DNA of 64,000 nucleotides from Methylotenera sp. (lineage in GTDB: Bacteria; Pseudomonadota; Gammaproteobacteria; Burkholderiales; Methylophilaceae). The position numbers and the translations under genes are program-made. Of the stretch, positions 18,403 through 18,770 are shown one piece after another. The stretch lies in contig JAUXNQ010000031.1 of the NCBI GenBank assembly GCA_030682715.1, positions 1 through 64,000 on the forward strand, in the 5' to 3' direction. Under the pieces are notes generated by a model that worked only from the letters and a program-made list of their open reading frames with translations, was not told the DNA's origin and searched no databases. Within the stretch, counting starts at the first letter, position 1; each line of letters begins with the position of its first letter.

Positions 18403-18419
18403 TTTGTTAACTGACGGAA
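18403..18419 (-). promoter_or_regulatory. Predicted Cascade target site (PAM + seed) for the mini-CRISPR RNA
   Basis: On the minus strand this reads TTC (complement of 18417-18419) followed by CGTCAGTTAACAAA. The pseudo-spacer at 18674 begins CGTCAATTAACTAA. Positions 1-14 pair except 6 and 12, which are the bases flipped out of the guide-target duplex in type I Cascade complexes. TTC is the usual type I-C PAM. Pairing beyond position 14 is poor, as expected for a site that is bound but not cleaved. The site covers the -35 element of the promoter marked here. Confidence 0.75.
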
Positions 18420-18440
18420 CTAATTTAATGGAGTTACAAT
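18411..18440 (+). promoter_or_regulatory. Promoter for small ORF / mini-CRISPR / cas5c
   Basis: A -35 CTGACG (18411-18416) and -10 TACAAT (18435-18440) are separated by 18 bases. An AT-rich UP-like tract (18388-18405) lies immediately upstream. Transcription would begin near 18447, giving a 26-base leader to the ATG at 18473. The -35 is exactly where the pseudo-spacer seed would pair. No promoter has been tested; this is a reading of the consensus. Confidence 0.55.
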
Positions 18441-18472
18441 CCAGCTACCTAATAAAATTGGTAGGGTGCTAT

Positions 18473-18634
18473 ATGAATGAAAATGAATGGATAGTTGCTA
18501 TCGAAAAAACTTCAGATAATCGATATGTAATGACGTTTGGCGGGAAGGTGCAGCTAACAGTTGAATCTGCCATTACATGGTTGTTCGGTTTGGCGGCTGT
18601 TATAGCTGGCATTCAACATTATTTTATTGGGTAA
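18473..18634 (+). CDS. Small membrane protein, candidate CreT-type toxin
   Basis: A 53-residue ORF with a hydrophilic N-terminal half and one predicted TM helix near the end (AITWLFGLAAVIAGI). ATG 18473 is chosen because GTAGGG lies upstream and the predicted transcription start is near 18447; longer frames from ATG 18428 (68 residues) or TTG 18404 would begin at or before the promoter. I recognise no family. A tiny single-TM protein directly upstream of a mini-CRISPR whose guide targets its promoter matches CreT of CreTA modules. Toxicity is inferred only. It could instead be a leftover or a Cas accessory. Confidence 0.5.
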   Translation: MNENEWIVAIEKTSDNRYVMTFGGKVQLTVESAITWLFGLAAVIAGIQHYFIG

Positions 18635-18641
18635 TGTAATT

Positions 18642-18673
18642 GTCGCACCCCTTGTGGGTGCGTGGATTGAAAC
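18642..18673 (+). repeat. Degenerate type I-C repeat 1 of mini-CRISPR
   Basis: 32 bases, 28 identical to the array repeat, ending in the intact handle TGGATTGAAAC. Two of the four changes form a compensatory pair in the stem (GCGCCC/GGGCGC becomes GCACCC/GGGTGC), and the other two are in the loop. The hairpin is therefore conserved while the sequence drifts, which indicates continued processing by Cas5c. Confidence 0.9.
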
Positions 18674-18727
18674 CGTCAATTAACTAAGTCCGTTAGATTA
18701 AGTCATCGCCGACTTTTGTCGGCGATG
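18663..18727 (+). ncRNA. Candidate CreA/CreR-like regulatory crRNA
   Basis: If Cas5c cuts after the stem of repeat 1, as in known I-C systems, the RNA would carry an 11-nt handle (18663-18673), a 28-nt pseudo-spacer (18674-18701) and the hairpin of repeat 2 (18702-18727), 65 nt in all. The guide is shorter than the 33-36 nt array spacers. Its seed matches the promoter region at 18403-18419. The promoter may be that of the small ORF by read-through, or a weak one just upstream (TGTAAT at 18635-18640). Existence of the RNA is inferred, not shown. Confidence 0.7.
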
Positions 18728-18736
18728 TGGATTGAC
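18702..18736 (+). repeat. Degenerate type I-C repeat 2 of mini-CRISPR
   Basis: It starts GTC like the array repeat and ends GTGGATTGAC like its handle, but the stem is rewritten to a perfect 10-bp hairpin (CATCGCCGAC / GTCGGCGATG, loop TTTT). Conservation of ends and of pairing but not of stem bases is a signature of selected RNA structure. There is no T run, so it is not a terminator. Confidence 0.8.
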
Positions 18737-18739
18737 AAT

Positions 18740-18770
18740 GTTACGACCCTTGCGGGCGTGAGGAGGAAAA
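18740..18770 (+). repeat. Degenerate type I-C repeat 3 overlapping the cas5c ribosome binding site
   Basis: About 20 of 31 bases agree with the array repeat. The hairpin ACG(A)CCC-TTGC-GGGCGT remains with one bulged A, but the TGGATTGA handle has become AGGAGGAAAA, which is the Shine-Dalgarno of cas5c (AGGAGG at 18761-18766, ATG at 18771). Cas5c binding this hairpin could limit its own translation. Confidence 0.6.

Follow-up and report, generated by a model that had tools for sequence, protein, structure and literature searches.

A candidate CreTA/CrePA-like module between cas3 and cas5c of a type I-C CRISPR locus in Methylotenera

In CrePA, as described in the parts of a 2025 review available to us, Cascade and a crRNA-like guide repress a protein toxin that is released by anti-CRISPRs, and the same review asks whether further CRISPR types have mechanisms like those of CreTA or CrePA, and whether these act on different cellular targets (PMC12737573). 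CreA, the guide of the type I-B CreTA modules, is read at positions 1-5 and 7-11 and is free at 6 and 12 (PMC8501985, in excerpt). CreR, in which the guide acts on the cas promoter, is recorded for types I-B, I-E and V-A in the accessible text of a further review (PMC13131331).

Here we analyze a 64,000-nt stretch of Methylotenera DNA (the window) and propose, with a probability of about 65%, that it carries a type I-C module of the CreTA/CrePA kind in which Cascade represses a membrane-protein toxin.

The cas3-cas5c interval and its mini-CRISPR

The window contains a type I-C locus with cas3, cas5c, cas8c, cas7c, cas4, cas1, cas2 and an array. The gap of 378 nt between cas3 and cas5c holds, in order, a minus-strand site flanked by TTC, a predicted promoter, an open reading frame (ORF) for a 53-aa protein and a 28-nt spacer with a diverged I-C repeat on each side; these repeats and spacer form a mini-CRISPR (18642-18738) that ends 32 nt upstream of cas5c. 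An earlier note on this DNA had placed a CreTA/CreR-like element between cas3 and cas5c, and both the observation and its coordinates proved correct; the comparisons described below support its interpretation.

16116..18392, plus strand: cas3 of type I-C (PADLOC Cas3c, E 5.6e-227)
18403..18419, minus strand: target of the psi-spacer, with TTC PAM (18419-18417) and seed (18416-18403), 24 nt past the cas3 stop
18411..18440, plus strand: predicted promoter, CTGACG-18-TACAAT, its -35 being the PAM-proximal part of the seed
18473..18634, plus strand: open ORF for the 53-aa small protein, a candidate membrane toxin (CreT/CreP-like)
18642..18673, plus strand: psi-R1, a diverged I-C repeat, 88% identical to the array repeats
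18663..18727, plus strand: expected mature guide RNA of ~65 nt, predicted by the earlier note from I-C processing
18674..18701, plus strand: psi-spacer (guide), 28 nt
18702..18738, plus strand: psi-R2, a more diverged repeat with its stem kept and 2 mismatches in the terminal 12-mer
18771..22217, plus strand: cas5c, cas8c and cas7c, the Cascade genes, whose products would act on the target
24950..27502, plus strand: main CRISPR array

The first repeat keeps the final 12 nt of the array repeat (GTGGATTGAAAC) unchanged, and its stem departs from that of the array repeat by a single paired change, G-C to A-U; the psi-R2 stem differs in sequence from the array repeat and its pairing is complete. 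Predicted hairpin energies are -12.5 kcal/mol for psi-R1 and -18.9 kcal/mol for psi-R2. The unit thus has the form expected in CreTA and CrePA, that of a crRNA-like element with diverged repeats of the local CRISPR type. Processing of crRNA in type I-C is done by Cas5, according to the accessible text of PMC10651486. One prediction counts against the module reading: in the mature guide alone, the handle is predicted to pair with part of its own seed. Just after psi-R2, positions 18740-18763 resemble, by eye, a third and more decayed repeat that overlaps the cas5c ribosome site.

The guide agrees with its target at all 12 read positions (1-5, 7-11 and 13-14), differs from it at 6 and 12, and pairs poorly beyond position 14. 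An incomplete match to a nearby site beside a PAM, held at positions 1-5 and 7-11, is characteristic of CreTA and CrePA, and TTC is stated to be a type I-C PAM in the consulted portion of a study on Xanthomonas oryzae (PMC8406640). Among the matches listed within the 64-kb window, only one other TTC site scores at least 9, with 9 of 12, and the pattern of TTC plus seed is unique in the 2.45-Mb genome (an assembly 95% complete). None of 20,000 order-1 Markov sequences of 250 nt, modelled on the gap, attained 12 of 12; the best score was 11, reached once. These results uphold two claims of the earlier note, that a TTC-preceded site differs from the first 14 guide positions only at 6 and 12, and that the match is far beyond chance.

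Its claim that the seed covers the -35 ahead of the small ORF stood in part. The promoter is weak on its own (2 sites against a shuffle mean of 1.4, with 13.5% of shuffles equally good), but it gains support because three other Cas5c loci (L047, L115 and L116) carry TTGACA in the same register relative to the PAM as the window's -35. The target lies on or beside a predicted promoter in the window and in the most similar loci with a small ORF; in CreTA and CrePA it would be expected on the promoter of the guarded gene. Just upstream of a predicted -35 is where the target site falls in L062, L079, L097 and L052, and in the plus-strand cases L051, L057, L065 and L076 the -35 starts 40-46 nt beyond the protospacer start. 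A promoter was also looked for at the target in L010, L044, L101, L104 and L129, and none was clear.

The description of the ORF as a 53-residue, single-TM protein fared similarly: the frame is open, but its one hydrophobic stretch (best 19-residue hydropathy 1.69) is not significant alone, 11.8% of shuffles of its own residues reaching that value. Judged from its sequence, the protein likely has a single TM segment. A structure model, built from three sequences and of low confidence (pLDDT 67), has a beta-hairpin and one C-terminal helix. Homologues are found in L047 (42% identity to the window protein) and L062 (24%), and the small ORFs of L115 and L116 look, by eye, related to this group. 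The window protein has no match in Pfam, NCBIfam or PADLOC, which counts against the toxin reading, and no relatives were confirmed in viral contigs. A profile of three small ORFs, run over 300 genomes of the order, returned only the window and one doubtful match (E 0.009, 29 residues).

Several further elements surround the I-C genes. Upstream lies a solitary cas1 of I-F variant type (13259-14224; PADLOC Cas1fv, E 1.5e-182), followed by a Bro-N protein (14268-15128); no further I-F genes were seen, by eye, among the window ORFs that were read. A 43-nt direct repeat (93%; 15125-15167 and 15844-15886) flanks a PIN-domain toxin and its partner (15185-15765), which stand upstream of cas3 as if inserted. 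Within the cas operon, between cas7c and cas4, is a type II toxin-antitoxin pair (PF09720 and ParE, 22305-22810), and directly downstream of the array a ParE-like toxin and partner (27745-28219) have a 31-nt repeat of 94% identity on either side (27530-27560 and 28513-28543).

Guide-target co-variation across Cas5c loci

We compared the window with Cas5c loci from the 80 best of at least 565 relatives, a biased sample ranked by likeness to the window, and with further loci from 24 of 300, 6 of 369 and 23 of 398 genomes; related loci in this comparison are not independent. Among 133 examined loci with at least 400 nt upstream of cas5c, 32 had, directly before cas5c, the repeat end GTGGATTGAAAC with up to 2 mismatches, yielding 26 distinct spacers. 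This selection of mini-CRISPRs was blind to targets, and L082, L107 and L111, found by looser criteria, were excluded from the counts.

Within 600 nt, 16 of the 26 guides had a TTC target in their own locus at 10 or more of 12 read positions, as against 2 of 650 swapped pairs. L011, L048, L073, L074 and L080 scored 5-7 in this test because their targets lie past the 600-nt limit, and they are covered by a second test around the cas3 stop (-20 to +110 nt, PAM not required, TTC as tie-breaker). The cas3 end was fetched additionally for three loci with too short a flank, and L013 was left out because its cas3 was not located. In the cas3-stop test 21 of 25 guides scored at least 10, compared with 16 of 600 swapped pairs; among these 21, TTC was present at 19, 18 were on the minus strand and 19 started 7-55 nt past the cas3 stop. 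L065 has two candidate sites, and the best one differs between the two tests. The search that the earlier note had suggested, for seed and target changing together in related genomes, thus gave a positive answer in both tests.

When sites were picked by TTC and exact agreement at positions 1-5, one was found for 19 of 25 guides (11 of 600 swapped pairs). Matches at these 19 sites numbered 2 at position 6, 19 at 7, 16 at 8, 13 at 9, 19 at 10 and 17 at 11, then 4 at 12, 14 at 13, 15 at 14, 13 at 15, 8 at 16, 12 at 17 and 6 at 18; over positions 19-30 the counts were 2-7 except at position 21, which had 10. The profile across guides dips at 6, 12 and 18, at every sixth base, and fades after about position 17. 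This is the pattern that type I Cascade would impose and that CreA was shown to need, and it bears out the assignment of 6 and 12 as bases unread by type I Cascade. Where the guides of loci with related small ORFs differ at a read position, the target differs correspondingly in 6 of 7 cases between the window and L047, 4 of 4 for L115 and 9 of 10 for L062, so that guide and target co-vary between homologous modules in the manner of CreTA and CrePA.

Part of the sample counts against this picture. Five of the 26 guides score 8-9 of 12 or have no convincing target: L045, L050 and L090 score 8-9, L077 is without a convincing target, and the best TTC site of L013 scores 9, owing, by eye, to a one-base slip. 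Non-TTC PAMs, which also count against it, are TTA in L011 and L102 and TTT in L048 and L053. The guide of L011 and L102 matches its TTA-flanked target at positions 1-16, including 6 and 12, so that a weaker PAM has perhaps been traded for a longer match.

Cargo and distribution of the slot

The cargo of the 26 guides was sorted by eye except for the named searches, and the 15 small ORFs taken for hydropathy were likewise chosen by eye. Fourteen guides go with a small ORF that has a hydrophobic stretch towards its C terminus (the window, L010, L013, L044, L045, L047, L052, L062, L079, L090, L101, L104, L115 and L129). One (L097) has a DUF2188 protein (PF09954), found also in L082 outside the 26-guide set; five (L050, L051, L057, L065 and L076) have no clear ORF, some of them with a strong ribosome site ahead of a mini-ORF that recalls RNA CreT; five (L011, L048, L073, L074 and L080) have large cargo; and L077 is without a class. 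By eye, L051, L057, L065, L100 and L111 hold RNA-like cargo, with a 5' hairpin, a strong ribosome site and a very short ORF, which resembles the RNA CreT of other subtypes.

The large cargo is diverse. L011 has a protein of the metallo-beta-lactamase fold (PF00753, E 1.3e-6), and L102, whose guide is the same, has SIR2-like and HerA proteins. A type III restriction subunit and RhuM are found in L048, and a type III restriction enzyme (PADLOC, E 2.7e-219) with a type III methyltransferase-like piece in L074; L080 carries an NA37 protein beside one without an assigned family, and L073 a 443-aa protein of no convincing family. In the large-cargo loci the target is still located at the cas3 end.

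Mean hydropathy over 19 residues reaches 1.6 in 13 of the 15 small ORFs, but only 7 of the 15, the window's not among them, score above 95% of the shuffled versions of their sequences. Three homologous pairs of small ORFs show a lower rate per site of non-synonymous than of synonymous change, and in out-of-frame controls this skew is weaker or reversed, being only slightly weaker in one L010/L013 frame; from these substitutions the small ORFs look translated. Nine of them were searched in Pfam and NCBIfam, none giving a hit at the curated cut-off.

The presence of the mini-CRISPR varies with the length of the cas3-cas5c gap. Among the 77 loci of the best-80 set with cas3 in view, it occurs in 0 of 36 gaps below 100 nt, 1 of 3 of 100-199 nt, 17 of 25 of 200-450 nt and 5 of 13 larger ones. 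We rejected the gap alone as evidence of the module, as ten gap loci have no mini-CRISPR at the criterion used. A GIY-YIG-like ORF, recognized by eye, occupies the gap in L058, L084, L095, L105, L108 and L110, where no mini-CRISPR was found; large genes without a mini-CRISPR stand in L096 (SIR2), L086 (TIR and SIR2-STALD), L067 (AAA ATPase) and L085 (no family match). In the 187 genomes of the window's family there is one other Cas5c at E <= 1e-20; the gap of this closest I-C relative is ~106 nt and holds no mini-CRISPR, which counts against the module, and by eye a 2-mismatch motif without a hairpin lies across its cas3 stop. Viral contigs yielded four Cas5c loci, none with the layout of cas3, target, cargo and guide, L122 being without upstream sequence; in L119 repeat-like units lie farther upstream of cas5c. 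The gap DNA had no match in plasmid records.

Proposed mechanism and relation to known systems

The comparisons establish, in sequence terms, the parts of the module, the match, its uniqueness and its co-variation across unrelated loci. We infer that the mini-CRISPR is transcribed and processed: Cas5c would cut at psi-R1 and psi-R2, and the guide would be loaded into the I-C Cascade. The spacer would pair at positions 1-5, 7-11 and 13-14 with the site next to TTC in which the predicted -35 of the 53-aa gene lies, a pairing too short to license cutting by Cas3, and Cascade seated on the promoter would keep the gene off. Repression of the 53-aa gene by Cascade is, on this sequence evidence, highly probable. 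Loss of Cascade, or its inhibition by an anti-CRISPR, would allow the membrane protein to be made, and the cell would be harmed or arrested. We lean towards toxicity of the 53-aa protein because the slot exchanges RNA-like elements and defence genes and because the Citrobacter CreT is translated (PMC12055562, in excerpt), which makes it a guess from cargo exchange and literature. Cascade bound there may, in addition, reduce transcription that continues from cas3 into cas5c-cas8c-cas7c, an extension suggested because no terminator was found between the target and cas5c in the window.

Taken further, that last effect could be the whole function, with guided Cascade repressing cas5c-cas8c-cas7c transcription in CreR-like self-control and the small ORF serving as an accessory protein or filler rather than a toxin. 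The window's target does lie upstream of cas5c, with the small ORF intervening and no terminator, and the mini-CRISPR ends 32 nt before cas5c; in L050 and L076 target and guide lie close together with no clear ORF in the space that is left, and CreR has precedents in other types (PMC13131331). We nevertheless think this rather unlikely, since most of the loci behind the 26 guides have cargo in the gap, the small ORFs appear to be translated, and the targets of L011, L073, L074, L080 and L102 stand at the cas3 end ahead of unrelated large genes, at least 1.8 kb (where measured) before cas5c. Those genes bear on another reading, in which the repressed product is harmless to the cell and, as a membrane protein, serves back-up defence or signalling during infection only: what other loci carry in this slot, such as type III restriction and SIR2-HerA, are defence genes, not plain toxins. 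Small single-TM ORFs and RNA-like elements would, however, seem to resemble toxins more than enzymes, and we regard this reading as improbable. The degenerate repeats might also suggest the remnant of a decayed array whose spacer matches the locus by chance. To this we give almost no credence, as the stems are kept by paired changes, the match is unique in the genome and co-variation is seen in unrelated loci; both chance and array decay were rejected on the swapped-guide controls, genome uniqueness and Markov sequences.

Beyond the Cascade-repressed membrane toxin proposed for the window, it is an even call whether the cas3-cas5c gap of proteobacterial I-C loci is a general slot shut by Cascade, with a fixed target, exchangeable cargo and a guide before cas5c. 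On this view its cargo would span small membrane proteins, RNA-like toxins, type III restriction, SIR2-HerA and a metallo-beta-lactamase-fold protein. If the general slot were real, the immune complex would silence a second layer of defence and free it when itself disabled. The proposed module would bring Cascade-repressed toxins to type I-C, with small membrane proteins as effectors, and would suggest that the same RNA-guided switch also governs ordinary defence genes. A bacterial answer to anti-CRISPRs would become testable, as blocking Cascade should switch on the second defence in the operon, and inspecting the cas3-cas5c interval would offer a simple way to discover further toxins and defence genes.

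Shmakov 2023 reportedly describes, in many type I systems, mini-arrays directed at the promoters of cas and cargo genes, and I-C cases or parts of the present findings may be listed there. Among the papers listed by a literature search that did not take in Li 2021, Liu 2023, Shmakov 2023 and Shu 2025, none showed an I-C CreTA or a membrane-protein CreT or mentioned the cas3-cas5c slot; "I-C" is absent from the main text of PMC8501985, PMC9458426, PMC12737573 and PMC10097628.

The comparisons that follow are with the portions of each source available to us. With CreR and other regulatory mini-arrays the window shares a crRNA-like guide that partly matches a promoter within the cas locus, in the window a predicted one, but CreR acts on the cas promoter (PMC13131331). 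The I-B CreTA of Haloarcula and Halobacterium likewise has two diverged repeats around a spacer, a TTC PAM, the same read and free positions, a target in a promoter, which in the window is a predicted one, and a place inside the cas operon; the window differs in being I-C, with Cas5c instead of Cas6 processing, and in guarding a membrane-protein candidate rather than a tRNA-sequestering RNA (PMC8501985). The Acinetobacter I-F CreTA also lies in the interval that separates cas3 from the first Cascade gene, in some species only, with two psi-repeats and a partial match beside the PAM, but its toxin is an RNA encoded divergently from creA, and it requires pairing to position 17, with no canonical seed (PMC10097628). 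Instead of the small RNA and rare-codon mini-ORF of the RNA toxins first described, the window carries an ORF whose 53-aa product has protein homologues. The I-E CreT of Citrobacter rodentium resembles it as a Cascade-repressed small ORF in the cas3-casA gap whose translation is required; it differs as a 96-bp ORF without reported relatives, with creA on the opposite strand, and in the available text it is not called a membrane protein, the words "transmembrane" and "hydrophobic" being absent (PMC12055562). The resemblance to CrePA would lie in the control of a protein toxin by Cascade and a crRNA-like guide, and in release by anti-CRISPRs; there the toxin is a KilA-N protein acting on FtsZ (PMC12737573), whereas the window's protein, which has no Pfam match and hence no KilA-N domain, would be a small membrane protein.
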